DNA from: Antedon mediterranea
Lineage: Eukaryota > Echinodermata > Crinoidea > Comatulida > Antedonidae
DNA: 64,000 nt
NCBI RefSeq assembly: GCF_964355755.1
Contig: NC_092671.1
Span: 9,559,001-9,623,000, forward strand
Direction of reading: 5' to 3'
A program made the position numbers and the translations under genes. Each line of letters opens with the position of its first letter. Position 1 is the first letter of the stretch. The notes beneath the pieces were generated by a model. That model did no database searches. It was not told where the DNA came from and saw only the letters and a program-made list of their open reading frames with translations. Shown piece after piece: positions 26,497 through 61,900 of the stretch.

Positions 26497-29091
<2,595 letters not shown>

Positions 29092-30779
29092 AATTTCATA
29101 GAAATTAGCATACTTCTAATTTCGTAAGTGGATCTGTAAAACTGGAAACAAAAAGAGATATCTTAAAATGTGTATTATTTATTAACTCAACCTAGAGTTG
29201 CTTTAACGTTTTGTATCATTAAATAAAATGTCATAATGTTAATTGTTTTACATTTCCTTTTAAGTTAATTCATACGCAAACTTCAGCAAAAACTTCGAGT
29301 TTGGCAAGAAAGGTGTAGATCAATTCACAAACTGAAGAAAACTAATTTGTATCTTCTTAATAAACTAATTAGCTGACGTTTGTCAGCAACAGCGAATCAA
29401 ATAATAGCCTTTGAATTCATGTTACCCTGCATGTATTCAAACTCGAAAAAGCCAATCTACACTGATTTTTTTCAACTGCAGGTATACGTACACTAGTAAA
29501 CTTTTCTTGACAAACTCAGAGCTTGCTTTAGTTTGGAAATGTAGCAACACAAACTTTTTTAACGTTGCTGGTGTAAACTAGGTCATTTCCCCCATAGTAT
29601 GCGCTGGTTTCCCTTCCTAGTCTCACTAGCAAACTTTACCGAAGTTTGGTTGAAAACTCTGTACATGGACCTATATGGCATTCTATGAGTTTGCCACTGT
29701 GGGTTCGTGATTTATCATGTCTTTAGTTATTATTAGACGCTGTTATTTTTTTTTCATTTCATCAGCTTTTAATTCAGCAATACGAGGCGTCGCCAGAGAC
29801 ATCGTGTAATGTGAACACAATATCCTAACTTTGTCACTTCCTACTATCACCTCGTAGATAGTTAAATATGTAGTGTGTATTGTAGACCTAGGCCTAGGCC
29901 TGGGTTATAAAATGGCCAGCATCGGGCTTCCTTATACCTACAGTCAGTCACACTTTGCTCCTAGACGTTTTCTCTCAATAACATAAATGATATTATGATC
30001 TATTGCGACATAATTTGATTAAAACAAGTGAATATATTTACCATTAACTGAGAAACGTTAAATACACACCAAAATATTTAGAATCATTTTCATAGTTGAC
30101 TTTACCTTAATTCAACGATATAAAAGCATTCTTTCCTTCTGAAAAACCGTTGTTAAAAATCATCAAGGCATGCCATAGTTAACAGCGCCTAATCTTAGCA
30201 TAACAATCCATGCCCACTAGACCATGAACGTATTATTTTTCATCTGAATTGTTACGGTACTTATCATTTATTTTATTCTAGCATACATCTAACTATATAG
30301 TACTAGATATACTTAAACTTTCCGGAATTTCTATGCCTAGCCTACAACTAAAAGTGTAATTATTATTGTATAAAAAGTTTGTTTATTATATCCACATAAT
30401 GGCTTGTAGTATAACTTAACAACAAGAATTTGTGTAAAGTTTTATAGGATAATCAAAAATTATAATAGTTTCCGGTAATACACATAATTATCATGTTCAT
30501 GGAACGTGAGAGATTTTTAAACTTCTTCACGCCCAAATTACGTCACGTTGTCGGAATATCTTTAATGTCATATATTTCTCAATACGTCATTACTGGCATC
30601 CATTTAGACGTTCAGGAAGCGTGTGAATATATTTACATTATCAAAATGTAAAGTATGTACAAACAAGTACATCCTAATTATTAGTAAGCAAAAGTTCAAA
30701 ATAATTTTAAAAAGTGTTGATCACACTTAGTAAACTAGCCGTGCCCAAATGTAGTGCGTCAGAATCAAGAACGTTTTAT

Positions 30780-34639: not shown

Positions 34640-36047
34640 TATTCCACATTTATTTAGTCATCAATTACAGTACATCATAATTACAGTACAACTGAGAACA
34701 GGGATCCTGCATAAAAAAGCTTTAGCTTCGTTTTTTTGTAGGACCCTTTTACATAAGAACAAGTATATAGAACTTAAATAAACAAAGGTGTTGTTAATCA
34801 GCATATAGTGATAAAAAGTATTTTTTAACCTGTTTTTTTATACATTTATTTTGTTTCTTTAAGATAACCGGTTTATTACCACCATTACAAGTGAATTCTT
34901 TCCACAATTTTGGTCCATATATGTGTATAAACTGTTGACTGCAAGTTAGTCTTGTGAAGGGAATTTCGAATTCAGTTTCTGTTCTGAGGTTATGAGTAGG
35001 CCTAATACTGTCACAGTAATTAAAAATATTTAAAATGTGATGTGGTAATTCATTGAATTTTACGTTTGCCATAAATCCTATGACGTTTACTTTGTAAATA
35101 TCATAAACGTTTAATATTTTTAGTTTCTTAAACAGTGGCTCTGAGGCTTGTCTGGATTTAGAGAAGGTAATGCATTTTACAGCTCTCTTTTGGAGTTTTA
35201 GTATTACTTCTAACGTGCTCTTGTATGTATTTCCCCATATTAAGTTACCATACTGAAGGTGAGGTAATACTAAGGTGTTATAAAGACTAATACGGACTTT
35301 ATGAGGAAAGAATTCTCTTACTTTTAAAAGTATACCAATTGCCCTAGACTTTTTTTTCCTAATAAGCTGTATGTGATGTTTCCAGTTAAGATTTTCGTTT
35401 AACATTACACCTAGAAATGTCACATTTTCTTTTCTATGTAATAACACATTATTCATTTTTATTTTAAACTGGTTTTTGTCAAAGTTCTTTTGGCTAGTTC
35501 TAAAAACAACGTAATTAGTTTTGCTGACATTCAGTAACAGCTTATTTGCTTTAAGCCATACGTTTATTTTTTCTAGTTCAATATTCATAGTATGGTTTAA
35601 CATTGTAGGGTCATCTCCCCTTGTTATACAAGTTGTGTCGTCAGCAAAACTAATTATATCTATTTTACTACTTGCTCGACTTATATCATTGATGTAAATT
35701 AAAAACAAAAGTGGTCCTAAAACAGAACCCTGTGGCACCCCTATATTGGTGTCTTTTAAACATGATGATCTACCGTTGGCATAAACATATTGTTTGCGGC
35801 CACTTAAATAGTTTCTAAACCACATTAAAACGATGCCTCTTATACCATAATGCGCCAATTTGCTCAACAGAATACTGTGATCGATAATGTCAAACGCTTT
35901 TGACAAATCCATAAAGGTAGTAAGTGCATATTCCTTTTTTTCAAATGCATTTAATATTTTATGGACCAAGTCGATCATAGCATGAGAAGTTGAGTGTTTG
36001 TTTCTAAATCCATATTGATTGTTGCTTAACACTTGTGTTGAAAGCAG
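34640..36047 (-). mobile_element. 5'-truncated non-LTR retrotransposon (Jockey/CR1-like superfamily)
   Basis: It comprises the reverse transcriptase ORF (34794-36032) and a 3' tail ending in TAAATAAATGTGGAATAAATG-type A-rich sequence. Endonuclease, ORF1 and the N-terminal part of the reverse transcriptase are missing. The frame is closed by a TGA just upstream of 36032, consistent with 5' truncation on insertion. Confidence 0.85.
34794..36032 (-). CDS. Partial non-LTR reverse transcriptase (412 codons)
   Basis: The product copies element RNA into DNA at the insertion site. Visible motifs in order: NNQYGFR (about residues 3-10), FMDLSKAFDIIDH (domain A with catalytic Asp, about 40-52), GVPQGSVLGPLLFLIYINDI (domain B, about 98-117), SFADDTT (domain C, the FADD catalytic pair, about 127-133), a KTNYVVF domain D and FLGVMLNENLNWKHHI domain E. 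The C-terminal thumb-like part runs to the stop without interruption, so the remnant is fairly young. The first codon of the open frame is GTG and only marks truncation, not a real start. The exact clade cannot be fixed without a phylogeny. Confidence 0.9.
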   Translation of the reverse strand: MLSNNQYGFRNKHSTSHAMIDLVHKILNAFEKKEYALTTFMDLSKAFDIIDHSILLSKLAHYGIRGIVLMWFRNYLSGRKQYVYANGRSSCLKDTNIGVPQGSVLGPLLFLIYINDISRASSKIDIISFADDTTCITRGDDPTMLNHTMNIELEKINVWLKANKLLLNVSKTNYVVFRTSQKNFDKNQFKIKMNNVLLHRKENVTFLGVMLNENLNWKHHIQLIRKKKSRAIGILLKVREFFPHKVRISLYNTLVLPHLQYGNLIWGNTYKSTLEVILKLQKRAVKCITFSKSRQASEPLFKKLKILNVYDIYKVNVIGFMANVKFNELPHHILNIFNYCDSIRPTHNLRTETEFEIPFTRLTCSQQFIHIYGPKLWKEFTCNGGNKPVILKKQNKCIKKQVKKYFLSLYAD

Positions 36048-36351: not shown

Positions 36352-37590
36352 ATGTTTGTATTTCTTCAGCTGATATCTTTGGCTTGGTGTGACGGAACCA
36401 TTTCTGTTCAGTTCATTGAATACAAAGGTAACCAGAAAGATTACAACGACAACAACTGTGATACTTTTGGTGGAAATTGTGACATTTTATTCAAAATATG
36501 TATGGGAAAGACAAGCAGGTAAAGAAACAGATTTAGCAGATACACAGAATGTTCCGGCTCTACAGAGGATCTCTTTACTGTATAGACTGTCTATAGAGCA
36601 GGAACAGTCCGTGTATCACCTTTTAGCAAAAGAAGTCAGTATAAGATAAGAATGCTATAACCTGACCTCAGTTAGAAACTTTTCACTCAAAAGGTGAATA
36701 AGGGTGCTAACGGATATGAATTTTACAGCTTTGGTGGAAACGATGATATAGGAACGTGTGATTACTGGTCCGGAGAAACTGGAGATATGGGAGATAGTGG
36801 ATCCATAACGTTTGGTTCAGATATGGCTGGAGTAGCCAATCCAATAAGTGATACAATAGACATCTACCAGGTAAGACTTCTGACTTATGACTCGGGCTTC
36901 ACGGTGTCTTAGTAGACCCAGATAAATACATTAACTTAATTAATAATGAATGAAAGACATCAATCATTAAACACAAATCTGGCAATATTTTTGGTAACTT
37001 TTAATAATAATAATATTTTTTCATTGAGCGGAAATAAAAATTAAAGTATTACTCAAAGAAGATTTGATTACTGATTCCTAAACCAGCCGAACTCTGGTAT
37101 TGTTCTTTAGTTTTTAACACGATGAGGCGGCTATAAATAACACATCTTTTTAGAAGATCTTTCGGGCTGAATAAGGCCTGCATAAATACTAAAATCAAAC
37201 AGAACAAACAGAAATTGAACAATTCATGGAAACAAACATTTTATTGAAGAATAGCAATAAAGTAGTACCATGGACCTCTATTTATAGGTCCATGGTAGTA
37301 GGCCCTACATTGACTTCTTGGTGACACGCACCAAATGAAGTAAAACAGAAGATCATTTTGAGACTAAAACCAGATTTTTAGAAAAGAAAATTAGTATTAC
37401 CTTTTCGTAAAATAATGGTTGTGTTACTCTTTCTATTTTAGGGAGAATTCCAAATAAAAATCGACGTCTATGATAGTGACAACAACGCAGATGATCTAGT
37501 GGATAAGTATCGTCAGGATGTTATCCAGACAGCAAATGGTATAGCCCAACAATATACTCTTACTGGTCAAAGGAGCCAAGACCAGACGAC
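36352..37590 (+). other. MNNL/C2-like N-terminal module of the DSL protein (exons 1-3)
   Basis: Residues 16-152 show the ligand pattern: ISVQFIEYKG, then CDTFGGNCDILFKICM with paired Cys, then SFGGND..GTCDYW, then IDVYDSDNNADDLVDKY and QQYTLTGQ. In Jagged and Delta this C2-like domain binds phospholipid and contacts Notch. Exon 2 was begun at 36729, after GCTAAC..TTTTACAG, because it alone gives phase 2; the reading from 36694 is closed by phase. Confidence 0.7.
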
Positions 37591-40500
37591 GTAAGATATA
37601 ACACGTTTATTTGCAAATTACTTTCTTACAGGTTGCTCTTTCTCTGTTTCCATCTTTGAGGCAATATTATTTTCTATAGGAAAAAGAGCCAAGAAGTGAG
37701 AAAAATATATGTCGTAGAACTTTAAAATTTCTTATTCGTTGCTCCTGGAACCAAGTGGAATGAGAGATCAATATATCTCTGGCACGCAGACACTGCCAGA
37801 CAAGTAGAATCGTGTCCACAAACTACTCCACGGGACATATAACTCATAATAAAACTAAACCCATTTAAGGGATAATGAATATTTACAGATATAGTTAAGA
37901 AGAGAGAGTATTTTATTTTACTGAATATTATTTGGGAGATAATGTCGTCTTATGGGAACAATCAACGAAACACTAAATGTACACACAAGCCAAACTAATC
38001 AGATAGTGACAGATTATGGTCTTCAATATCGTTTATCGACACTGCAGGCTAATGAATAACCCCCCAATTTCAATAAGATATATCATTATGTTAGTTTTTA
38101 AAATGTTGATTTGATTGTTACATCTTTAATTCTCAACAGGACTCTGGTGTCGGTTACAGTTACATGCAATGCAAACTTTTATAGCAGTGATTGTGGAACG
38201 TTCTGCATTTCTCAAGATTCAGACGCCGATGGCCACTACACATGCGACCAAACAACCGGTGCAAAGATATGCAACGCAGGCTACTCTGGATCAAATTGCA
38301 AGACTAACATTGACGAATGCGCAAGTTCACCATGCGAAAACGGGGCAACATGCAATGACGTTGTGAACGGGTATACATGCACATGTGCACCTGGTTTCGA
38401 CGGTACGATATGCTCGCTAGACATTGACGAATGTAACAGCTCTCCGTGCGAATTTGGAGGTACGTGCAATGATAAGGTAAACGGCTACGAATGTGACTGT
38501 ATGGCTGGCTATGAGGGTGACCGATGTAAGGTGGACATTGATGAATGTTTTTCGTCCCCGTGCTTGAATTCTGCCTCGTGTACTGATAATGTAAATGGAT
38601 ACTTGTGTACATGTGTTTCTGGATACGGAGGTGTACATTGTGAAACTGATATCGACGAATGTGAAAGCAGCCCATGCCAAAATGAAGCAGTCTGTACTGA
38701 CATGATTAATGGCTTTAACTGCACATGTGCAGATGGATATGAAGAAGACTTCTGCCAAACTAATATAGATGATTGTAAAAATCTCCCATGCCAGAACAAT
38801 GCCACGTGCTATGATGACATCGACAGTTTTCTATGCTTGTGTGCTTTTAGTTTCTTTGGAGAATTGTGTGAATTAGAAATAACTGATTGTTCAGGATCGC
38901 CGTGCAAAAATAGCGGTACTTGTGAAGAATCTAATTCTTCAATAGTCTGCCACTGTCCGTCAGGCTATATTGGTGATCTCTGTGAATGGGAAGATGACGA
39001 ATGCGAAAGTATGCCATGCCAAAATGGTGCGACCTGCAATGACATCATCGATGGATTTATCTGTTCGTGCGCACATGGCTACTTCGGTACGACATGCCAA
39101 GAAGAAATAGACGAATGTGATAGTTCTCCTTGTATGAACGGAGCAGAATGCATCGACATGATTGCTGATTTCCTTTGCAACTGTACTGAAGGTTATGAAG
39201 GCAATTACTGTGAGACAGATATTGACGAATGTATGTATTCAGAATGTCGTGGAAATTCAACATGTATTGATGGCATAGGTGGCTACTACTGCGAATGTGA
39301 GGCTGGATACGACGGTGACTTATGTGAATTTGAACTAAACGAATGTTTTAGTAACCCGTGTAGAAATGGCGCCAATTGTACAGACGGTATCGATTACTTC
39401 ACGTGCACATGCGAGCCTGGTTTTACGGGTATTTTATGTGAAAAAGACATCAACGAATGTAACTCCTTTCCTTGTTTAAACAATGGTACGTGTGTAGATA
39501 AGGTAAACTCATTTTCTTGTCAGTGTGCGCGCGGATGGGAAGGTACCGTCTGCGACATAAATCCAGACGACTGTCTGCAGTCACTTTGTACCAACAACTC
39601 AACATGTGTTGACGGTTTCGGTGAATACCTTTGTGAATGCGCTGTAGGCTACCAAGGACTTCTATGTGAACGTGACGAAGAGGAGTGCATAGAAAATCCC
39701 TGTCAAAATGGTGCCTCATGTGTCGAAGAATTCGGCGGGTTCCTGTGCGTTTGTCCTGAAGGTTTTGAGGGCGGACTATGTGAAGTAGACATCGATGACT
39801 GTGAAGTCGTACCATGTGAAAACAATGGGACATGCATAGACATGGTGATTATACTGATTTTCTCATTTGTGTAGATATAGCAACTAAGTCTGAAAAGGAT
39901 GGTGATGAGAAACTGTATGATCAATAATGAAATAAGCCTACTAAAAATAAAAATAATGATTTTTGCATTTTAGATAAACGGATATGAATGTTATTGCCCG
40001 GATGATTGGTACGGTAGCAACTGTACAACTTACATGCCAGACATGTGTAGGTATAACAACTGCACGAACAATTCCACTTGTCAAGGAGAGCTAGACGGAT
40101 TCATTTGTATCTGCTTACCTGGATTTGAAGGTAAGATCATTTTAAATATTATATCATCATAATGTAAGGCGCTTCATACTGCGGCGTTCTATATATAACA
40201 TTGACATTCATGTATAGGTGAACTGTGATTTATGATTTCAAGATTGTTTCCTATTTTTTAGGAGATTATTGTGAAGAAGATATCGATGAATGTTCTTCAA
40301 TACCCTGTAGAAATAATGGAACATGTACGGAGAGCATAGATTTGTACTCTTGTGAGTGCGTTAATGGCTTTATTGGGCGTGATTGTGGCATAAACGCAGA
40401 CGACTGTGTCGATGTAAAATGTCAAAATGATGGAATTTGTCGTGATCTGGTTGCTGACTTCACCTGTGATTGCGTACCAGGATTTGATGGAAGATTATGC

Positions 40501-43500
40501 GAAGTAAACGTTGATGAATGTGATAGTAATCCGTGTAAGAATAACGCAACATGCATCGACGCCGTGAACGGTTACAACTGTACATGCGCAGATGGGTTTC
40601 AAGGGCCCTATTGTGACGAAAATGTTGACGAATGTGTTTCGTCACCGTGTATACATGGAAACTGTACGGATAAAATAAATGGCTACGTGTGTGACTGCCT
40701 AGCTGGATTTTATGGCTTAAGTTGTGACATGGACATCGATGAATGTGCTTCGTCACCTTGTATCCATGGGAATTGTACTGATTACGTAAATGGTTACGAA
40801 TGTAACTGTGACTCTGGTTTTAATGGCATCAACTGTGAACTGAATATCAATGAATGCGCATCTTCACCTTGTGTCTACGGTGACTGTATCGACGACGTAG
40901 ACGAGTACGTATGTACCTGTGATGTTGGCTTTGAAGGAGTCAACTGCGGCATAGAAATCAACGAATGTGCTTCCTCACCTTGTATTTATGGCAACTGTAC
41001 TGATTTGGTCGGGGAATATTTTTGCAATTGCAGCGCTGGCTTTACTGGATCAAACTGTGAAGAAAACATCAATGACTGTGACGGTATTGACTGTAATAAT
41101 GGACAGTGCGTTGACGAGGTAGATGGCTTCATCTGCCAATGTCTGTCCGGATTTGTAGGAGAATTCTGTGACGTCAACGTTGATGAATGCTCATCAAATC
41201 CGTGTTTAAACAATGGAACATGCGAAGATGACATTGATAGCTTTTACTGCGTCTGCCCAATCACCTTTTTGGGAACCATGTGTGACCAGGACGTGGATGA
41301 ATGTGCAGTTGACAACCCTTGTCCTAATAACGCTGTTTGTAATAATACATTTGGCGCATTCATCTGTGTCTGTAACCCTGGCTACTCTGGAGAAAACTGT
41401 AAGACAGTCGATGATCAGTGTATACTTGAACCGTGTAAAAACGGTGGAACATGTGTAACTGAAAACAAACAATACAGGTACAGCATCAATTATTACCCAA
41501 GCTTTCAATTACATGCCACTACGATATTTGTATTCTCAAGTCCCTTGTCAAGACCTTTACAGTGGTGGAGAAGAATGGGAGAGGGCATAAATCGTAATAA
41601 GCACATTTATCATCACTTTTGCTGCTGCTGGTCTCAAGTTTGAAAAAAGCACTTCAAGAACATTTTACCCTCCTGCCTACAGATTCCACAATGTGTCCCT
41701 TACTAACACTAACTACATATACACAATTCTTACTATGGGCATGTTTTCCCGAGTTAAGAAACCAACGATCAAATGTACTATCAAACTTTCCAATATTATT
41801 TCAATATAGATGTGAATGTGGAAACGGGTTTGTAGGTACGGATTGTGACGTGATTTTCAATCCATGCAGTTCATCACCATGCTTCAACCAGGGAGAATGC
41901 AAAGAAACGGACGGTGGAAGTTATACCTGCTCCTGTGCTCAGGAATTTACCGGTGATCGTTGTGAAATAGGTAAGAGGGTATTATACAAATATTGACCAG
42001 GTTGAGGGGCATGGTTCTAATTATAGCCCAAAGCGATACTTCAAATTGAGGAATATTATAATATCCTGCAGATTACCGAGGGCTATAATTTGAACCATAT
42101 CGGGATATAAACGCATGTCAATATTTGTTTTATACCCCACATAAAAAATAGCTTATTATAATCCTACTCGTTTAGACCGTGTATTAAAACTGGCTGTTGA
42201 ACTTTTCATCAACACAATTGTTGAAATCGAGTATTCTCATTAGTTGATTGATGTTAATAAGAGCCACGTCACGCCCCTTATATTTAATGCGCGCTCTTTT
42301 AAAAAGAAAGGCTTAATTTTGGGAGGAAAATAGAAAAAAAAGACTGGAGAGTGGAGTTGAGGTTTGTGGGTAGGATGCTCGCCTCGGCTACCGAATCCCG
42401 GGTTCAAATCCTTTCTCATGCCAAAAAAGAGACTTGTTTGCTGGATTGCTGCCGGTACATTTAAAAGGAAAATATTTGCTTGTGGTTATCTATCTCTTTT
42501 CCACTAACCTCGTATGTTTCTCGTCATGATTGCATTTCATAATATTGTATCATTACTTTTAGTTTAAGAAATAATTTTGTTTTGCTTCTACCCAAATCTC
42601 TATCAAGCCGTTCATTATTTTGTTTGTTTTTCTGTTTTAGAAATCTCTACTTCGTCATATACATTTTTCTTGGCGGGAAGCGTATCAAATCAAAATGAGT
42701 TGGCAGACGATATCTCAGAAATATACAGCTACTCGTCACAGACAAATGACGAAATTAACGTTGAAATACTCTCTGTAGAAGAATATGTTTCTGTTGAAAC
42801 TGGGTAAGTTACCGTATGTGTAAAATTGTGATGATTGCTGAAACACTGCGAAGCTTGCCAATAATGATAAAGAGATGATGGGATCTGTAATTCATAAAAT
42901 ATCGAAGGTGACAAAGAATGTTTGATTGTAGGCCTAAGACGCAGTTCGATCATCATTTAGTATGTTAATGATAACAGAATTTATATACAACAGCCAGAAG
43001 AATAAATCTTTTAATTGAATTAATTGGAGTGGAGTGAACACAGATTCTTCACTCACGCGGCGAAGAAAATGTGAATAACGGATTATGATTAGGTCTACTA
43101 CAACCATTACACTTTTTCTACACTACTGCTATTGTATTGTCTTTCTCATCTTTAGAGAACCTGTCAGTAAAGTGCAATTCATAATAATTGTTAACAACAC
43201 TGCTCAATCTAGTGACGAAATCGAGTCAAAGGTGGCAGAAACACCACCGGAAGTCATTGAAGAAAGTTTGGGAGCAAATCTATTCACAGGAGAAGCGGTG
43301 CCAAAGGATGAATATACAGAAGATAAGGTATGGAACGCACACTAAAATACTGACTATTAACTACACTACCATAGCTACAATTGTCGTTGTTAATTTTTTT
43401 TTTTTTTTTGAGTATTTCCAAAGAAGTGAAACTGAAGTGCGCCACCTTCTTTAGGATAAAGTTGCCAAACTTGGGCAACATTACAAAGTGAAGCCATTGA

Positions 43501-46500
43501 GCCGTGACGGTGCTGACTAAATTTTACAAAGCATTCCACTACAGGATGTCAAATTATTAGATAATAGGCCTACCCTTTAATTTCTTTTATTTGTAATCTT
43601 TTTTAGGGATGGTTTGAAGAAAATTGGATTTGGTTAATGTTTCTAATTTTTGGGTTGTCAGCAGGAACGGTGTTTATTGCGATATTTGTTACCAGAAAAA
43701 ATAGGTACAGGTAACTAATAATAATTTTTATTCATTATACACATCAATGATTAATACAAAATGTACATTGTCCTATGGTATTATCATATGGATAAGTGTC
43801 CTGGGGGTAAATATTTTTTTTTTATTTATTATTTTTTTTTTATTCTCATTTTAGGCAAATTGCCAAGGATAACCACAAGTGAATTCATTCACTATCCTTC
43901 TCAAAGGTGGCAATCCCATTCACAAGACAAACATATACACAAGGTGCTCTACATAAACAAAGAGTGGAGTTATTAATTGTCATGAGAAAAAAACCCTGAC
44001 ATATGACAGGACTTGAACCCAGGACCCTTAGATTGGTAGCCAAGCATCATAACCACCAAGCTACATTATTCTAAAAAATCCAAATCATTCAAATAAAAAT
44101 AATAATAATAATAATAATAAGTTAAAATGTATTAGTCTTAACGATAGCAAATAATGACTTATATAAATCAAAGATTCCCTTCAGGTGGAATGGCATCCTG
44201 AGATGAGATCGCGTCTTCTTGTACTTAACAGTACAGTTTTTATTTTTGTAACGTTATTATTATTACAGGGAAAAAAATATCAAAGTATCGATTAATTTGA
44301 GATATGATTAGCGCTCACTGGCTAACCCCAGGGGCCCCGGAGCTTATGGGGGGGGGGGGGGCAGTGTTAATAGGAAAAAAAACAGGCATTAAAATATATA
44401 TGCCAAAAAGTCAAAAAACGCCCGAGGGCTTCAACGGTTAGAGGGCAACTTAAGTTTCCCAAACCAGGGTCTTCGAGCCTTTTTTGCGTTACGCCACTGG
44501 ATGATTATACATTATTATTCCCAATATACTGAAAAAAATACAATTCTCGTTGCATTATTTTCCGTTCACTCTAGATTCATGGTTTAACATTAATTTAATA
44601 AGTAAATTAAAAATGTTTCAGTTTATATTTAGATTTTTCTAAAACTTATATAGGCCTAAGTTGTTTTTAAGTGTGTTTGATTCAGTATGACACTGATATT
44701 GCCGTCATATTAATGAACAAATAAAATATATATATGCTTTTAGGATATAATATAAAAAATAAAATGCAGTTGGTTGTGAGGTTCGATTCATAAGGGAACC
44801 TAGCCGGCCCAATGCGCGCATACTGTACACAACCCACATGACGTTATTATAATACGTTAGTAGTTTTATTTGGGAGGAACCTTGCAGGCCCAATGCGTGC
44901 ATCACAACCCACACGAAGTTAATACGTTTGTAGTTTTATTTGGTTGGGACCTAGCCGGCCCAATGCGCACATCACAAGCCACACGACGTTAATACGTTAG
45001 TAGTTTTATTTAGGGGAAACCTAGCCGGCCCAATGCGCACATCACAAGCCACACGACGTTAAAACGTTAGTAGTTTTATTTGGTAGGAACCTAGCCGACC
45101 GAATGCGCACATCACGACCCACAACACGTTAATACGTTAGTAGTTTTATTTGGGAGGAACCTAGCCGGCCCAATGCGCACATCGCAACCCACACGACGTT
45201 AATACGTTAGTAGTTTTATTTGGGAGGAACCTAGCTGGTCCAATGCGCACATCGCAACCCACGTGAAATTAATACGTTAGTAGTTTTATTTGTTTCATAA
45301 TTTTATAACTTTACCGGAAACTAGCAACAATACATATCGGATTAATGAATACAATGACAAAGAATTTGTTGATTCGGTTACATGGGCAGCAAATGCTATT
45401 CTTCAACACCGGTAATCAAAGGAAAATATTTAATAACTGACGGGTGACGTGTTTAGCACGATTCACACGACTATAAAACCGGTGTAAACAACACACCCAA
45501 GTCGAGTTCATTGATTTAACGGTTTTAGAGTTCATAGGATATTAATATTATCTTGGCGTTATATAGTTTATGATTATATTTATTATAATTCAATTGTTTT
45601 GGGATTATTTTTAATAATTCCTTTCCGATACGCACCTATCGATCGATGATTGTATTTGGGGATTCATTTTAGAAATTTTCATTTTTTTAAAAACTATTGC
45701 CTCTTTTTAAGTCCGTGCTTAGGTCAATTACAAATTTGTTTTATTCCTTTTTGCATTTTTAATCCTTTTATCGTAAATGTACATATATGTTTGTATTGTT
45801 ATTTTATTGTTTTAGCAAGTTTTAAAGATTGTTGTTAACCTTTCATTTTTTATAAACAGGACCATATGTAAAACAGGTACTACATATACAATACCTTATA
45901 TGTTTTTATCCTGTATAAATATGTTTTTAAATTTTTTAAATAAATTAATTAAATTAATCGATTCGCACCTCTATCGAGGGAAAAGTCATTGTGCGCATTA
46001 TCAGAAACACGGCGCCAAATGCAAGCTCTGTATGTATCAAACTAGTTTGACAAAAAAAAGTGTGATGTGCCTAAATATGGTAGTAATATGCTTAAATGTG
46101 GTAGTGATACGACATCATCATGTCCATATAATATGGCCACATCACATTTTATTGTCACATAGTTTGATAGTGTAGACAAAGATTAGGTTGCTCATGCATA
46201 TACGGGTCGCCAACTGAAAGAAAATTTGCCTTTTTAAAAGAAGGATCATAAACAAAATATGATTTCATAATTCGATGGAGAAAGACTAAGTACCTTGAAC
46301 TAAGGTTCAAAATCCTACATTGTGAATTAAAAGTGTTATTGTTTGCGTGGGAACATAAGCGTCAAATAGTTCAATTAATCTGTATTATATAAAGCTCTGT
46401 CTACACTATAGTATCAAGGTTTGTGTGACAAAAAATGTGATGTGCCCATATATGGACATATCACTACCATATTTGGTCAAGTCAAACGCTAGTTTGTAGA

Positions 46501-47004
46501 CAGAGCTTAGGAAAAACCAATTTACATTGTAAAAATGCAATATGTTGATAGAAATATTGAGAAGGTAGCGAAAATAAATTAGATTTTGACATTATGATAT
46601 TGACTGCTTTCCTTCTCAGTGTATTTTAAACTGTTAAATTCTATTAACATAGGTAGGCCTACATGGTTTCATCCTGCCCACAACTTATCCATGTCTAGGC
46701 AAAATTATTATTATTTTTTTTAAATAAAAGGCATTTACCATTTATGAGATAAACCGAATAATAATAATAATACAATTTTTTTTTTGTCGACAGGTCTAAA
46801 GATGTTAGTGATGTACTTGATGATGACTACACGGACGGTGCACTAAACAGTGGTTTTAGCATGGCTGATGTACCAGTAGACAATCAAGAAACAAAGAAAA
46901 ATCACATAGAATTTAACAATCAGGCGTATGAAACGTCAGTCAATGAAATACTAAATGACGGTTATGCTGAAATAGACGAAAATAGATATGATAAAAGGGA
47001 ATAA
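36352..47004 (+). CDS. DSL-domain transmembrane protein with 27 EGF repeats (Notch-ligand-like), 11 exons, 1448 aa
   Basis: Exons: 36352-36518, 36729-36870, 37442-37590, 38140-39844, 39974-40130, 40262-41477, 41810-41970, 42641-42803, 43156-43327, 43607-43710, 46794-47004; total 4347 nt, one stop, all phases consistent. Residues 1-15 form a short signal peptide. Residues 16-153 resemble the MNNL/C2 module of Delta and Jagged. The DSL domain is at 162-206, EGF repeats 1-27 at about 210-1231, and a Thr/Glu-rich membrane-proximal segment at 1233-1344. One membrane helix lies at about 1351-1373, with a 75-residue acidic tail ending DKRE. Canonical ligands signal to Notch on neighbouring cells. 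Here the two atypical EGF repeats that normally follow DSL are absent and the repeat number exceeds Jagged (16). Whether it binds Notch is open. The start is supported by the hydrophobic MFVFLQLISLAWC; an alternative is an upstream exon joined at the TTCAG at 36365-36369. Confidence 0.87.
36871..38139 (+). other. Introns 2 and 3 of the DSL gene, with a 32-bp hairpin
   Basis: No extra exon was seen apart from exon 3 (37442-37590). A short inverted repeat TACCATGGACCT / AGGTCCATGGTA lies at 37266-37297. Confidence 0.5.
38165..38299 (+). other. DSL domain
   Basis: Six cysteines are spaced as in the Delta/Serrate/Lag-2 domain: C-NANFYSSD-C-GTF-C, then GHYTCDQTTGAKIC, then C in GYSGSNC. The GHY-C-D core is kept. 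The loop between the third Cys and GHY reads ISQDSDAD, whereas human JAG1 has RPRDDFF there. Confidence 0.85.
38300..41970 (+). repeat. 27 tandem EGF repeats of the DSL protein (exons 4-7)
   Basis: Repeats 1-14 begin in exon 4 without an intron, repeat 14 crosses the exon 4/5 join, 15 the 5/6 join and 26 the 6/7 join. Most start with the calcium-binding consensus (I/V)(D/N)(E/D)C. At least 15 carry the O-fucose consensus C-x4-(S/T)-C between Cys2 and Cys3 (for example CENGATC, CKNGGTC). Repeats 19-23 are one residue shorter there and lack the site. Confidence 0.88.
42350..42560 (+). mobile_element. tRNA-derived SINE candidate in DSL gene intron 7
   Basis: GTGGGTAGGATGCTCGCCTCGG resembles an A box and CGGGTTCAAATCC is a near-perfect B box, correctly spaced (about 30 bp). 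The intervening arm does not fold as a normal tRNA and a non-tRNA body follows, so a SINE is more likely than a tRNA gene. Confidence 0.55.
43607..43710 (+). other. Transmembrane-helix exon of the DSL protein
   Basis: Encodes about 35 residues: an acidic GWFEEN lead, a 23-residue hydrophobic helix (WIWLMFLIFGLSAGTVFIAIFV) and a basic stop-transfer TRKNRYR. Two donors 6 bp apart (after AATAG or after TACAG) keep the same phase. Confidence 0.85.
43820..44075 (-). mobile_element. tRNA-like SINE (minus strand) in DSL gene intron 10
   Basis: On the minus strand TAGCTTGGTGGTTATGATGC (A-box-like), CTACCAATC (anticodon region) and GGGTTCAAGTCC (B box) are in tRNA order at 43998-44062. The body that follows, with the word CACTTGTGGTTATCC, is shared with 22655-22930. 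Confidence 0.65.
44310..44502. mobile_element. MITE, TGGCGTAAC family, copy 1
   Basis: Starts at GCGCTCACTGGCTAACCCCAGGGGCCCCGGA and ends GCGTTACGCCACTGG. It is collinear with 48332-48517 but interrupted by a G tract (44349-44362) and more diverged; the left inverted repeat is lost. Confidence 0.7.
44794..45291. repeat. Tandem repeat, 7 copies of a 68-82 bp unit
   Basis: Unit: GGGAGGAACCTAGCCGGCCC AATGCGCACATC followed by AACCCACACGACGTTAATACG and TTAGTAGTTTTATTT. Copies begin near 44794, 44871, 44941, 45009, 45081, 45150 and 45218. Lies in the 3.1-kb intron 10 of the DSL gene. Confidence 0.9.
45640..45950 (+). mobile_element. Possible LINE 3' untranslated remnant
   Basis: AT-rich stretch ending ATCCTGTATAAATATGTTTTTAAATTTT, a word shared with the LINE tail at 30780-30810 (inverse strand). 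No coding remnant was identified. Confidence 0.3.
46024..46182. mobile_element. MITE, TCTACACTATCAAAC family, copy 3
   Basis: AGCTCTGTATGTATCAAACTAG at the left and GTTTGATAGTGTAGACAAAG at the right, with AATATGGTAGTAATATGC and ACGACATCATCATGTCC in the centre. Confidence 0.75.
46393..46507. mobile_element. MITE, TCTACACTATCAAAC family, copy 4 (short, 115 bp)
   Basis: AGCTCTGTCTACACTATAG and its inverse GTTTGTAGACAGAGCT at the ends. The interior keeps only one half of the usual centre. TAA lies at the left flank and TAG at the right. Confidence 0.75.
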
Positions 47005-52900: not shown

Positions 52901-55900
52901 AGGTTTGACCTAGGCTGACATCTTGTATCGTCAATGTGTGAGATGGATTTCAATAACAAAAAGGCCAGAATAAATAAGGCCTAACTACACTACAAATACA
53001 ACTGTTACAAAGGCTACAAACTATTATCAACTGATTACCATTATATTTTCTAACAAATGACATAAATACATGCACCTTGTATTTAAACATAGGGACTACG
53101 ATCCCATCCGCTTTTAGGCCTAGCTAGGCCTAGAGCCATTCACGCATTTCATTCAAGCTAAAAACTAGCGTGGGACATCAAAAGTCACTCATTCATACAA
53201 GGCAGACTAGACTGGACAAGTTTAATGCTGAAAACCCCCTAACTCCTAAAAAAAACAGTAAACAAACAAGGGGAGCTGTGTCCCTTTTATTAGCAAGTTA
53301 AGGGTTATTTTCAACCGACTGGACCAAAGAATATATATCTTTGACTGGACTGGATAGACTAATCTCAATCTTTTTTTTCTTCATCATTACGAGGACGAGG
53401 CCTGCTTTATTTTCGTAACACAAGAGCCTGGGGAAAATGTTTTTTACTACAAAATAAAAACAATAGAAACAGAAATTTGACTTTACTATATTTTTCTTAA
53501 ATAAATGCTGAGGTATGTTTTATTTACGGCAAATTTTGTCATAATATTGTAGGGCTGAGATCTAGGCCTATATACAGTGGAAATAATGATGAAAACACGT
53601 GGGTAAGAGCACATGAATATGCAACTAGAAACAACCTGGATGACGTACTTCCGTTGTAACGATAATCGTACGCTATGGGTCTGAACACCTCGTTTTTTTC
53701 TCTGCGGTTTGTAACGTGACCTTGATAGTAACGTTGTACGCTAAAACGGTCTAACGCCATGGGTCTGAACAGGGCCTAAGCTTATAGGCCTATCCAAGAG
53801 ACAGAATCACGTAAATAGTATATATATGCAACTAGAGCACGAATATGAATAAACTATTCTTTCCATTCAACGAATACAAAACATTAATTATTTGTTTTAT
53901 AACATGGCACCTACATTTATTCAATTTATCCACCATGCCGATGATAGTGCGATTTTGTATCCTCACACCAAAGTAATATCTTGATCTCATTTACCAGTGT
54001 TTTTAAGTATGTTGAATCATGGAGAAATAATAACTTGTTTCTCTGTGGTTTAATGTATTGTCAACTTTTTGTCTTTGTTTTTATAAAAATTTGTTCTTCT
54101 ACGTCTTGAGTCCCACACCGAGGCTTTCATGGGCTATTCTACATCTCTTTTTAAAATTGTAATTGTATATATTTATATATCTTGTATGTGATATTTTGTA
54201 TGTTTTTAATGAGATGCAAATAAATCAAATCAAAAAGGTCATTGACGAATGCTAGGCCATTTAAAAAGGCATTTTTGGGTTGACAGTACAGTAATGGATT
54301 ATCAATATGACCGAACTTGGTACCGAGAATTTAACTGGAATTAAGCAACAATTAAATACCTTAAGTAACACATTTTTATACTATACTATGGTATAGCTTT
54401 GTTTCTCAACACCAATATTTGGTTGCGTTTCATGCTTGTTTTAAATTGAAATACTGACATGTTATTTACATATAGATACATTGCTGTGTCCTTTATTCTT
54501 TATCACGGCCTACAAAAGCGTAATTAAATAAAAATAACTAATATTTGATTTTTTTTGTAGACCCCGATCAATGTTCTTTCGAAGTATTAAATAGTTGTGA
54601 TTTAGTTAATGGATATTGTCAGGATACAAGTAGTGGGTACACGTGCGGGTGTAACAATGGCTTTCAACTCGCAATGAATCATTTCGATTGCGAAGGTAAG
54701 TTAGGCCATAATATAACCGGTATTATATAATTATGTGTTGTATCATAGTACAGATTCCGTAATATAAGATTTCACATGCGATGTACTCTGTATTACGGAA
54801 GGTTAGGTTAAGGATTTTGATGATACAAGCCTCACATACTGTAGTTTCACGTGTGACACTGTATAACGGAATTTGCCGATGATACTGGCGAAAGACAGCT
54901 ACAGTACCGAAAACCAGTTAACAATTTAACTTATACCATGTAGAAATAATTTTCTATTATTATACTTACCAAAGAATAACAAATATGTGCACATTATAAT
55001 GGACTGTAAGATATAAGAATGTTAGTTGCTGTTTATTGTCGAGAATTTGGTGACTAAAAAAAGTGCTTTATTTTGTTTATCTAGACATAGAATCACCGCA
55101 AATTACCTACTGTTTTGACGCTACGTTATTAGTTGGTACGGATGAAGGAGTGAAGAACGGTACAGCCATGTGGATGGAGCCACAAGTGACTGATAACGCT
55201 GGCGATTCCGGGATCACAATGACGCAGAATTACTATTCAGGAACGTCTTTTCCTATAGGATATTATGAAGTTATTTATACATTCTCGGACGAGGCTGGGA
55301 ATACAAACTATTGTTCATTTAATGTCTCTGTATTTGGTATGAATAACTTTTATTGTTTATTACACAGTTAATTTCAACCATTTATTCCCCAAAACATAAT
55401 TTACAGTTGACCTAAACATCATTAAAGAAATATTTTCTATTATGCCTATTAACACACCTATTATGTTTATTCTTGTCATTGGTTCATTTCGTAGCATTAG
55501 TAATGTTGTTATACAGAAAGTGATTATTCAATGCTTCTATATGCAAAAACCAAGCTGCCTCCTTGTGAACATTTCCACGTGATATAATATTATGCGACAA
55601 AGAAAAACATGTTACATGTTTTCGCGCTCTTAAAATCCCAACGCCGCCTTATTGCGTAGCCTAACCTTTGCCATTTTATTCTACTTGTATTAACTGCAGA
55701 TGATGAGGTACCAAGGCTTAACTGCCCAAGTAATCAAGCTTACAGATTATCTGTGGGCGAGTCAACTGTGTCTGTTAACTGGACAAGCGCTACTGCAACG
55801 GACAATGTGCAAGTTGAAGATATTTATAAAAGCTCGAACATCACACCAGGAGACTTCGACGTTGGAACGTACATGGTAACATTTGAAGCAGTTGATATTT

Positions 55901-58900
55901 ATGGTCTCGTGGGCATGTGCACATTTTCAATAGAGGTTGGAGGTACTGTTGTTTGCTGTTGTTCTTTTTCATAACTGTATCAATAATTATAACAATCACT
56001 TTGCAAACTCTATCGTGTACCATTTTTTCAATGTCCACTCTATCTTTTTAGATGTGACATGTCCAAGTTCCTTTCGCCGTTGTCCAGTAACCGATGGTGA
56101 ATGCATTTCGGAGCACAAGTTTTGTGATTTGGAAATGGATTGTCCTAATTGGTCAGATGAAAACGAACTTTCATGTAGTAAGCCAGTGTTTTGATGATTT
56201 TTTAAACGATTAATTTCGAGAAGCATAATTTTGTTTGTATAATTAGATATCTTAACTTAAGGAAATTAAATTGTTAATTATCTGATTCAAAATGTTTTAT
56301 AATGATTTATTAATATAAAATAATGCTTTTTTTTAGGCGAGTGTACGTCAACACAAACACGATGTGGAGACGCCTACTGCATCGAGACAGATCGCTTTTG
56401 CGATGAATTTCACTATGATTGTCCATACGGTGATTTTGATGAGACATCTGCAATATGTGAGGGAAGCTGTCTTTCCCCAAACCCATTAAGGAATGGCGAA
56501 CAGACATACCCAGAAATACACCGAAGAAGATATCTTAACAATCAGGTGATACGGTACGCTTGTAATACTGGTTTTACCATGGTAGGCGATTCGGAACTTA
56601 CTTGTATCGACGAAAGTTTTGGAGATAACTTACCCGAATGTTTTAGTAAGTTGGAATTTTCATTTGTTCGTTTTTAGACCTTTTCTCTCAGTTGCTTATG
56701 CAGATAGAATACATGTATAACACTCCGAATATGTCTCTTTTATTGGGTTCTACTATGCGTTATATATTATCTTCATTTAAGTTTCTATGTTTTCTTTTTT
56801 AATTTTGTATAGCTATGTGTACTAGGCCAGATGCACCGGGAAATGGAGCTGTGACGGGCAGTTCAGCAATCGACCACGGTGAAACAATTCAATTCAGCTG
56901 TAACGATGGATATGACCTGCAGCCCGCGACCCCCATCACGTTTACATGTGATGACGGTTCGTTCGGTGAAGGTATATCTAAACGCTGTTTAGGTAAGCTT
57001 ACTTTGAATACAGTGTACTAAGTAGCCTATCCTCTTACTGAGTGTCTCCTGAATAGGAGATCTTTGGTTTTAAAACATAATATATTGTCCCTGATTTATT
57101 AATAAGGGTATTTTCCCTAAGAAAGGATTGCATATTAAGCGTCAGCTTCAGTAGAATTCTTTGAGTTTTGTATATTGCTAATTACTTTGTGTAATTTATA
57201 GAAATGTCTGTGGTATGTGACTCTAAAAAATAATATTGTGTACACTTAAAAGTAGCATTAATCTTATGCATAAAAGAATCCGTCTTATACTATTATACAT
57301 CTTAAAGTCTAATAATAGCATACATTAAAAATATACACTGTATATACCGTATTTACCCACGCTAATACACTGTGATAGGCCTATAGATATTAATACGATT
57401 ATGTAAGATTATGTGGTTTGGGTGTGGGCTCGGTGTCTCGGTAAAATATCCTGCTAATAGTTATACAGTACAATGTTATAAACAGTATCATATAAATCCT
57501 GATAATAAATAATAATTTGTCAAAACCAAGTTGTGATCACAACTTGGTTTTGACAAATTATCATTATTATCTGGATTTGAAACACACCTGATGAAAATAT
57601 TCTCCGATATAGGCTAAATCCTATTGATAAATGATGTATATTTATTTGGTTTAGATATTGATGAATGCCAACAGCAGGAAACATGTGATAGCAATGCAGA
57701 ATGTACTAACATAATTGGTTCTTACTCCTGTGATTGCGTAGCAGGATATGAGGGTGACGGTTCGACATGTATAAGTAAGTTGACGCGTTTAACATTTAAA
57801 TGACGTAATGCGTCATATTTCTTGGTAAACATATCAAGCGTTTGTCTCAAACGCTTGATACAATTTCCGTAGAGTGTAGTATGTCAGATCAATCAGTATC
57901 TCCACCCATAGTATGTATAAGGAAAACAAAAGGTCCTTAACACTCGTAAAGTATTTCACACAAAACATGTTTACAAGCGCTTGATGTTACGATATTCCTA
58001 GGATGCAAGTTTAACATTTAAACCATAGAGATATTATAGTTCACTATAATATCTCTATGTTTAAACACGTAGGCCAAATCTCGACAACTTAACCGTGAAA
58101 ATAGAACCACAGCTCCAAGCCAACTCCCGCTACAATTCAGAACGTCCTTGAAATGGCTTGTCCTAGAATCGCGCGGTGACGACTCCGCATTCAGATGCCT
58201 AAGGACATTTGAAGTGGAACTATAAAATGGGTGTAACCACAAAATTACTTCATGCCACAACATCAGAATTATAAATTAAGTCGTAAACAATAAATTCTTG
58301 AAGCTGATCCGCTAATCACAGTCACGATAGTCAACAGACGTCTTTCCTAATTCCTACTATTGTTATTCTTGCCTTTAGGGAAGGCCTATATACCAGAAAA
58401 TCCACAAAATAATCTCATATGAAATCAAACAAACCGGAGTAACTTCAAACAGAGAAACAAAACACATTACGAAATTCAATGTCTCTATATATGGAGTTCC
58501 CCTTGTTTTATTTTATCTTTTCATTTAGCTTAATGATTAATTTGGGAAGGGTGATATATTAATTGTTACTTATACATATTGTTTGTGTTACTTTAATTAA
58601 TTGAGACGGATCAAGTGTGAACGACGTGGGAGTGGAATAATCAATTTATATCACGCACATTAAATTTTAACTCCTTTGATTCGTAGATCCGTTTGCTAAG
58701 ACCAAATCACCTTATCCCGATTTTATCCCATTGTCATTATTTTCTTTTGTATTTCGGGCTTCCCGCAAGGATACGAAATATTTGTGGTTTTCGAAATTGT
58801 ATTATTTATGAAATTAGCTGAAATGAAATTATCAATGACATCGCGAAAAGGCACACAGTTGATGGGCGCGTCAACAAATTGTGATTTTTCATGATAACAC

Positions 58901-61900
58901 GTTTTTCGCAGATACTGCTTTTTGTATGCTCATCGCCAACTTTGAGTTTTTTCATGGCGGTGACAAACATGTATTCCTTAAACCTCTATTGAAATGTAAT
59001 GCGTTAACAGAGTAGAGATCGTAATTTAATCAAATGTAAACAACTGTATTACAAAATTCAATATTTGTGTCAAACTTCTTCCATTATCAAAATTGAAGGA
59101 ATGCTTATGCGTATACTAAAGCAATTGTTGAATACGTAATATCTAATAGGGGTGGGTTGTATCATATTTCGAATTTGCTGGGTCGGTATATCTTTTGGCT
59201 TGACCCGCTGTTAACTATTCAGTTGTATTTGACAAATAGGTTAGCAAATACTTCTTCTTTCTTGGAGATCCAAGAAACATTTATTATATATGGCCTTTGG
59301 CCCAAATAATATACAATGTAATACAATATTAAATAAATATCAGTTGAGTGCGTTTAGAAATTCTGTTCTACGTTTAAATGAAAAGAATAAATATTTTCCA
59401 AGTTTAACAATAAGATCAGTATTTGTGGCAGACATAAGATAAATATATTTTAATTTAGTTGGGTTGTTTGTATAAAAGGAACACATATATTTAGTTCTAA
59501 TATCTGAATAAAATGGACAAACTAAAGTGAAATGATATTCATCTTCAAATACAGTAGACTGTTATTTTTAGTATCACTATTTAAAGGAATTATGGTGCTT
59601 TTCATTATTATATCTATACTCAATAATAAAATAAATAATAAATTTTGCTGACTCGCCGCAAGGAAAAAATAGACAACTAATATATATTAGTTACCTGGAT
59701 ACGAACACCAATTTGCCAGCGATCTGGATACCTGTTTCCGATGATATTATGTAAACGATATTCGAATCTGCACAAAATAAAAATCAAAATTAAAGAGTTT
59801 AAAAGGTGACATTTAAGATTGTTTTGGAATGTTAAAATTAGTCTGTAAAAACAGGTTTTATTTTAGAGAAGTAAGAAATATTCGCCAAAGTCATTGGAAA
59901 TTGTGGATATGAATTCTATTGGTTCTTTTCAGCCAGTTCAAATTACATAGTTATATAAATCGACGTAATAAATAGGCCAAGTCTACATTACATAATGTCT
60001 TTAGGCCTACATGAAATGTTTTTAGTAACTACTTTTTAAGACTAGGACAATAACGACCGACGATAAATAGTAATTTGATCTAAATGATATTTTCACACGC
60101 CCAATCAAATGACGTCATGATTCAATAATATTGTGACAATACAACGATTTTACTGACGTCATTTTTATTGGGTTTAAAATAATATTATTAGCATAAATGA
60201 TTATACTTTAGTTCTTGAACGAAAACTTTCAATTTTTTTATTTTTTTGCTTGTAAGAAAAATGTATCTATTTATCGTCGATCGTTATCGTCCTAGTGTAA
60301 ATTGACTTTAGACGTAATGTGAAAGTTTAACAAGTTTCGGATAAGTTTTATAGCAAAGTGGGTGGGTATAGCAATCGATTAAGTCAAGGCAATCTAACAA
60401 CAAGACACTAAGCTCGCCTTGCCAATATAGGAACTCGTAACAGTCTTTTGATCTTATGTCTGGCTGCAACAAAATAACAATACATGTAGTTCTAAAAGTA
60501 AATATTCTCCGCGGCACGCGTTTTCTATTAAGGGGCGTGGAACTGATGGTGTCGCAGCCACAGATAAACCATTTGAACTCTCTTTCGCCTATAATATTAG
60601 CATTTTAATTTGTATTAGACATAGACGAATGTGCACTAGGCTCGAGTAGCTGTGACGTGAACGCAATTTGCACAGACTCTGAAGGAAGTTACACGTGTGC
60701 TTGTGATGAGGGTTACAGTGGAGATGGATTCGAGTGTACCGGTAAGTTAGTTACTAATGAAAATAAATACTGTACCAGATTCTCGTCAATGTGCTTTTTA
60801 AATACTGTATATAGCACCAAAGGGTCCAGTAGGGGTTAAACTTTAAACACATTCGTGTGTTATGGATGACATAAAACAGAAACGCAGTTTATTCTTTCTC
60901 TCGTGTCATGAAAACACACGAGACCCGCCTAAATTAATGAACTTGACCATACTAAAATAGTATATTTATTTTCGTAATGTAGAGATATTATACGAAGACT
61001 ACGGAACGGACGCTGGCGATACCACCATCAGACAGCCTACAGCACGTTCTGTTCAAAGTACTCTTAATGAGTTAACTTCACCGTTATTTAAACCGCCTTC
61101 TGGATTCCCATACGGATCACAATTTTTATCCAACGTTTATGTAAGTATTTTCTTTATATTTTTATTGAAATTAATTCACGATTTGTACTTGTGATTTGTG
61201 TGAAAATAAGTGATAAGGAAAGACAGTGAAGTATGGGGGATTCGCCCTCGTCGCTAACCAGCGTTCGACCTAATGCCCTGGTTAACACAGGTTGCGTCAG
61301 GGCCTTCGTAATACTCGGGCGCCTCATATCCTAGTAATGAAAACAGGTATGAATGAAAAACAATGACTGAACTGACAATAATCGCTCTCTCCGCGTGAGA
61401 TTGAGGGGAAGGAGGTTACTCGCTCCTGAATTTAGGTTTGTGGTCAGTAGCCAAATCATTTTAAAAATGCACTTCATCACTCACATCTACTAAAACAAAA
61501 CAAAAATAGGCCTATTAAATCGACACAATTATATTTCTTCCTTTTAGATAACTGAGAATGGGATTTTCATTTTGGTGAATGATAATGACGACATTATGAC
61601 GTATCCAAATCCACCTCTTGCGGGCTTTGAAAGCGACGACTCGAGAAACATAATAGCTCCGTTTTGGGCTGATGGTGACCTATCTGCTGGCATTGGTGAT
61701 GTCTATTTCCAGGTAATAATTGCTACTTTTATAATAATAATAGTAATAACATGGTTTTAAATTACAATAAAGATACTAAAATAAACACTTCTGTTATTTA
61801 ATAAACTCAGTAGTATTAAAAGGACCATTTAATATATTATTACAATACGTAACTAGAAACAAGACTAATATCTAGTTTTAGATACGGTCAATCCCCTTAG

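Follow-up and report, generated by a model that had tools for sequence, protein, structure and literature searches.

A DSL protein of Notch-ligand build with a very long EGF stalk, from an expanded DSL gene set in a crinoid, as a possible modulator of Notch

The window analysed here, a stretch of 64,000 nucleotides of the Antedon mediterranea genome (C2:9559001-9623000; the genome searched comprises 354 Mb in 18 contigs), contains a gene for a membrane protein of Notch-ligand build with a very long EGF stalk, in which a hydrophobic leader, a C2/MNNL head, a DSL domain, 27 EGF repeats, a cysteine-free stretch, a transmembrane (TM) helix and a cytoplasmic tail follow one another. Judging from its sequence, this gene is a member of a small DSL family expanded in this animal, mostly on one contig, and may encode a contact-dependent modulator of Notch. 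The statement as a whole, i.e. an expanded DSL set with this anatomy and a modulating role, is given a probability of about 0.5, the anatomy being far surer than the role.

The window gene comprises 11 exons on the plus strand (36352-47004; Table 1), which join in phase across introns that are all GT-AG into an open frame running for 1448 codons to a stop. Rebuilding this exon chain and counting EGFs by regular expression reproduced the coordinates, the protein length and the 27 EGFs of the initial annotation, made from the same DNA. Because the model was built from genomic DNA alone, exons 1-3 and exons 4-11 could in principle belong to separate genes fused in the model, but this is very improbable, as a single phmmer alignment to fly Delta spans exons 1-4, and the exon order and junction phases (summed by hand from exon lengths) repeat at the paralogs. 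As far as DNA allows, the treatment of exons 1-3 and 4-11 as one gene is thus supported. A 70-base minisatellite of 6.3 copies (44850-45292) lies inside intron 10. Elsewhere in the window, a reverse-transcriptase open frame (RVT_1, E 2.4e-29; 34794-36047, minus strand) lies approximately 300 bases upstream of exon 1 in the opposite direction, an MFS_1_like transporter open frame (E 8.4e-58) occupies 27679-29115 on the minus strand, and plus-strand exons at 55054-62988 match HYR (twice), sushi, Ca-EGF and NIDO, with an AMOP match below the cut-off, and perhaps form one extracellular nidogen/sushi-type gene.

Table 1. Exons and DSL domain of the window gene, in positions of the window
Feature	Position	Strand	Evidence
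Exon 1: start codon, hydrophobic leader, beginning of C2/MNNL head	36352..36518	+	Frame; exon recovered by spliced aligner as control
Exon 2: C2/MNNL head	36729..36870	+	Frame; phmmer; spliced alignment to paralogs
Exon 3: C2/MNNL head with D-x-D...DD loop (DVYDSDNNADDLVD)	37442..37590	+	Frame; phmmer; loop comparison
Exon 4: end of head, DSL, EGF 1-13, first part of EGF 14	38140..39844	+	Pfam DSL; frame
DSL domain	38165..38305	+	Genome Pfam DSL match C2:9597165-9597305
Exon 5: end of EGF 14, most of EGF 15	39974..40130	+	Frame
Exon 6: remainder of EGF 15, EGF 16-25, first part of EGF 26	40262..41477	+	Frame
Exon 7: end of EGF 26, EGF 27	41810..41970	+	Frame
Exon 8: first half of juxtamembrane domain	42641..42803	+	Profile tests against paralogs
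Exon 9: second half of juxtamembrane domain, linker	43156..43327	+	Profile tests against paralogs
Exon 10: transmembrane helix, with aa 1354-1372 as most hydrophobic 19-residue window	43607..43710	+	Mean hydropathy 2.51
Exon 11: most of cytoplasmic tail and stop	46794..47004	+	Frame

The DSL domain scored 35.2 bits against a Pfam cut-off of 24.2 in a search of the 1448-aa product, the check that had been proposed for it, and 39.5 bits in the Pfam search of the whole genome. The Pfam MNNL model, proposed for the same check, matched neither the protein nor its locus in the genome search, and the head ahead of the DSL is therefore called by homology to fly Delta and to the paralogs. A phmmer search aligned aa 40-207 (exons 1-4) with fly Delta (7alk) in one alignment at E 1.3e-10, the best solved-structure match, followed by JAG2 (4.4e-8), DLL4 (2.3e-7) and Serrate (1.4e-6). 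Fly Delta was also the best solved-structure match of paralog A over head and DSL (2.4e-22; then DLL1 3.7e-20, JAG1 6.4e-19, rat DLL4 1.2e-17 and Serrate 3.6e-10), the order below fly Delta being mixed for both genes. Spliced alignment placed residues 14-155 of the window gene upstream of the DSL in six paralogs (A, B, D, E, F5 and F6), where not one of 40 shuffled queries did as well at any of them (weakest at D, Z 3.7); the alignment failed at paralog C, where 10 of 40 were as good, and one of 40 reached the real score at the genome's own Delta. MNNL matches above the cut-off lie less than 5 kb from the DSL exon in paralogs A, B, E, F5 and F6, the weakest being that of E (E 0.0086, with one stop within the matched stretch). 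Junction phases before the DSL exon are 2-0-2 in the window gene and in the same five paralogs, where they were summed from aligner exon lengths with tiny exons omitted, and where an added junction in the F5 model and short pieces in the B model were taken as aligner noise or extra introns. The paralog peptides come from an aligner guided by the window sequence, some with a few residues from doubtful tiny exons, so that likeness among them is favoured. Taken with hydropathy, these matches confirm the ligand-type MNNL/C2 start, DSL and single membrane helix of the initial annotation. An AlphaFold prediction of the exon-4 piece (DSL, EGF 1-3 and part of EGF 4) with two paralogs gave a mean pLDDT of 61.4 and a pTM of 0.27, with the first half of the DSL below a pLDDT of 50, and a fold search for this piece was dropped because of the low confidence.

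The spacing in EGF 1 and EGF 2 is 4-5-8-1-8, as it is in 20 of the 27 EGFs, which bears out the claim that the two short atypical repeats expected after the DSL are absent. Of the 27 EGFs, 18 match a Ca2+-binding consensus, 16 an O-fucose consensus and 16 an O-glucose consensus. Tandem units of 111 bases occupy 40630-41005 in exon 6, at about EGF 19-22, and paralog C (L008, 3119-5467, reverse strand) carries eleven near-identical EGF units, counted by a common seven-residue string, which suggests recent tandem lengthening of its stalk. Measured against Delta, the window gene lacks the DOS-type short EGF 1-2, which the genome's own Delta has, but missing DOS repeats alone do not make a ligand non-canonical, since Dll4, a Delta, is described as also lacking the DOS motif (PMC6986876). 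The ancestral form of Delta is given as a nine-EGF array with an ATEV end (PMC5356439), whereas the window gene has 27 EGFs and ends in DKRE. Against the rule for Delta in the same source (signal peptide, MNLL, DSL, at least nine EGFs, TM, intracellular part), the EGF number, TM helix and tail of the window gene fit, with MNLL present by homology only and the signal peptide judged by eye.

Exons 8-9 encode a juxtamembrane domain that the initial annotation had overlooked: its statement that there is no Cys-rich region holds in that aa 1231-1345 contain no cysteine, but the same stretch holds a conserved domain. Leave-one-out profiles found this domain downstream of the EGFs in paralogs A, B, C, D and E, at scores that none of 60 permuted profiles reached in any of the five (Z 11.1, 10.4, 4.9, 13.8 and 12.1, respectively, C being the weakest), subject to a mild circularity for A, D and E, whose profiles include B, itself found by a profile containing them. 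From the window sequence without a profile it was found in A, D and E (0/40 shuffles each) and not in B (7/40 as good) or C (28/40). It is thus common to the six long DSL genes, all on contig C2. An additional copy at C2:20005779-20005919 (0/30 permuted profiles as high) is accompanied by a four-EGF open frame, but a DSL exon was not found within the 30 kb retrieved, which suggests a broken or DSL-less relative. The profile gave no clear match to the end of the genome's own Jagged (2/30 permuted profiles as high) and was not found at the end of its own Delta (20/30), in F5 (25/30) or in F6 (29/30). A SEA-like or Notch-HD-like identity was unsupported by these Jagged and Delta tests, by Pfam (best E 0.011, in one of the six members, to a DNA polymerase model and taken as chance), by PDB sequences (no match to the profile at E up to 10) and by hhalign against the genome's own Notch heterodimerisation region (no similarity). 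None of the 61 VWC matches listed for the genome, by a search that scores best candidates only, falls in the window, and the window gene lacks the VWC/Cys-rich region of Jagged/Serrate. A single TM helix is indicated by the eight most hydrophobic 19-residue windows listed, which all start at aa 1350-1357. The 76-residue tail that follows has five lysines and an FNNQAY motif, and TM and tail together aligned with those of paralog E only (0/40 shuffles as good, compared with 7, 4, 8 and 25 of 40 for A, B, C and D).

Across the genome, ten DSL exons exceed the Pfam cut-off, corresponding to one Delta, one Jagged and eight genes of the window-gene kind, namely the window gene and A to E on contig C2 and F5 and F6 on contig C7. 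The Delta (L001) has two short repeats after its DSL and best matches DLL1 (E 1.1e-65); the Jagged (L002/L003) best matches JAG1 (E 2.1e-30), with a VWC match 32 kb downstream on the same strand and a Cys-rich stretch and TM helix in L020. As there is one NOD and one NODP exon, approximately 0.4 kb apart on contig C4, the genome appears to hold a single Notch as far as these searches see. Counts by regular expression in open frames, as lower bounds, gave at least 27 EGFs in A, 21 in B, 20 in C, 19 in D and 31 in E, and there are three each in F5 and F6. An ordinary EGF follows the DSL directly within the same exon in seven of the eight extra genes; the exception is B, where this EGF was recovered incompletely and ordinary EGFs are present in the exons found next. 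A DSL-like match at C5:12134024 was dropped, being absent from the ten Pfam DSL matches and having an aligner head that, on inspection, looked like noise. The presence of eight such genes in the one genome searched fits the earlier description of the protein as lineage-specific.

To place this set relative to Delta and Jagged, a tree was built from 209 columns of head and DSL, with seven extra DSL rows (paralog C was omitted because its head was not recovered) and seven canonical rows (fly Delta, DLL1, DLL4, own Delta, JAG1, Serrate and own Jagged). All seven rows with a head fell on one side of a branch with 100/100 support, opposite the Delta and Jagged rows, with support for Delta of 80/94. 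The tree program warned of long branches for D, B, own Jagged and the window gene and, in this first tree, of an odd letter make-up in the window gene; when B, D and own Jagged were removed, the remaining five again grouped at 100/100, while support for Delta fell to 48/32, and the window gene was a long branch in both trees. In topology tests of groupings chosen post hoc, placing the window gene alone with the Delta rows was rejected (p-AU 0.00015), whereas uniting the clade with Delta as one group against Jagged was not (p-AU 0.566), for which reason the clade is perhaps an offshoot of the Delta line. The initial view of a DSL protein apart from Delta and Jagged therefore holds as far as the 100/100 split and the first of these tests go, and is tempered by the second. 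Sequence comparison thus points to a real group that may be an old or young offshoot of the Delta line, and the anatomy and grouping of the window gene are regarded as highly probable.

Two features of the head were compared between the clade and the canonical rows. A C2 loop of the form D-x-D...D-x-[V/I]-[D/A], a pattern written after inspection of the clade, is present in all seven clade rows with a head and in none of the seven canonical rows. Its first Asp aligns, by eye, with Jagged1 D140, which is reported to bind Ca2+ in the beta5-beta6 loop, and the D140A/D144A mutant to retain Notch binding but to bind liposomes and activate Notch less well (PMC3888931); these aspartates are reported to be absent in human Delta-like1 and 4 (PMC5538765). 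In the DSL, the conserved face is described as F199, R201, R203 and F207 in Jagged1 numbering (PMC3415683), and F207A is reported to reduce binding to background (PMC3888931). A Phe equivalent to F207 is present in six of the seven canonical rows and in none of the eight clade DSLs, as judged from the loops by eye, with the F207 place approximate in the window gene, B, C and D, whose loops differ in length from the canonical eleven; in D there is a Phe closer to the next Cys. The window gene keeps F199 only of the four residues, with the loop ISQDSDADGHYT. The canonical exception is the genome's own Jagged, which keeps R201 only and whose DSL (L002 1496-1822, reverse strand) has the shortened loop RPHNVSRHFT, while the own Delta has E at the F199 place. 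Residues of the DSL face therefore drift in this genome in proteins presumed active, the criterion discriminates poorly, and loss of F207 is not taken as proof of lost Notch binding; the DSL-EGF11 site has also been described as more variable than the C2-EGF12 site (PMC5538765). The altered DSL face thus points weakly to a possible antagonist role.

The explanation preferred here for this combination of features is that a long stalk, partly stiffened by Ca2+, would keep the C2-DSL head well away from the cell; the head would contact the membrane through its Ca2+-dependent C2 loop, and the changed DSL face would allow only weak engagement of Notch, or of another EGF protein. The protein would then modulate the single Notch in a contact-dependent way, either through competition with Delta and Jagged in trans or through binding in cis, rather than activate it strongly. 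This role, proposed from sequence features, is tentative; in its favour are the Asp-rich C2 loop of the clade and the F207-equivalent Phe, missing throughout the clade as judged by eye and present in most canonical rows, and there is a precedent in DLL3, for which action in cis and no binding in trans are reported. Against it, the tail lysines and NxxY-like motif are what an endocytosed activating ligand would need, and the grouping of the clade with Delta was not rejected. These same points, together with the presence of head, DSL and TM helix and the position of fly Delta as best solved match of the window gene and A, would suit a divergent but ordinary activating ligand, i.e. a long-stalked Delta offshoot signalling in trans in certain tissues, and ligands without a DOS motif can reportedly be active (Dll4; PMC6986876). 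Such a ligand is nevertheless rather unlikely given the rejection, post hoc, of the window gene alone with Delta, the changed DSL face in all eight genes and the tail without an ATEV-type end.

The head may alternatively have been reused on a long EGF rod as a non-Notch adhesion or recognition molecule, with the juxtamembrane domain serving for shedding or packing. The expansion of the gene set mostly on one contig, the variable EGF number with some units that look recent, and the occurrence of the juxtamembrane domain in six long members and one locus where no DSL exon was found are consistent with this, and DLK1, which is Delta-like, may not bind Notch at all (PMC12216052). It is considered unlikely, since the DSL has been kept in all eight genes and the C2 head in seven of the eight over a long divergence, which argues for some use of the head. 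Returning to modulation of Notch, a further step would be to place the set beside Delta and Jagged as a third class of Notch-ligand-type proteins, defined by a C2-DSL head with a Ca2+ loop, a long EGF rod and its own juxtamembrane domain, and comprising dedicated Notch modulators (or recognition receptors) kept in this animal's lineage; this is doubtful. Notch has few canonical ligands. For the question of how extra DSL proteins tune it, and of whether ligand-type proteins evolve into antagonists or adhesion molecules, this genome offers a defined set: besides a single Delta, Jagged and Notch, the searches found eight more DSL genes, of which seven were tested as a group and six share a domain that Pfam does not recognise.

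DSL genes beyond Delta and Jagged are already known, with Delta-like and DSL-like genes described in an annelid (PMC5356439), fast-evolving DSLs in tunicates (PMC5882950) and five Deltas in a sponge (PMC10970066). In the portions of the open-licence literature covered, no description was found of this juxtamembrane domain or of an array of more than 20 EGFs after a DSL. With Delta (fly Delta, DLL1, DLL4) the window gene shares the C2/MNNL head, six-Cys DSL, EGF array, one TM helix and lack of VWC, but it differs in its 27 ordinary EGFs without short EGF 1-2, its Asp-rich C2 loop and its extra juxtamembrane domain, and stands apart in the tree, although an offshoot of the Delta line is possible. 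With Jagged/Serrate it shares a long EGF array and an Asp at the C2 Ca2+ loop, as aligned by hand with the loops described in PMC3888931 and PMC5538765, but it has neither a VWC/Cys-rich region nor short EGF 1-2, and no clear counterpart of its juxtamembrane domain at the end of the own Jagged. The lophotrochozoan expansions, for which 138 DSL genes were screened, likewise include DSL genes beyond Delta and Jagged; growth there is described mainly as DSL tandem repeats in bivalves, some without EGFs (PMC8166818), whereas each gene of the present set has a single DSL, set on an EGF array. DLL3 is a DSL-family protein that is reported not to bind in trans and to act in cis (PMC4391858), but it is an amniote relative of Delta, and the likeness would be one of property without a sign of common origin.
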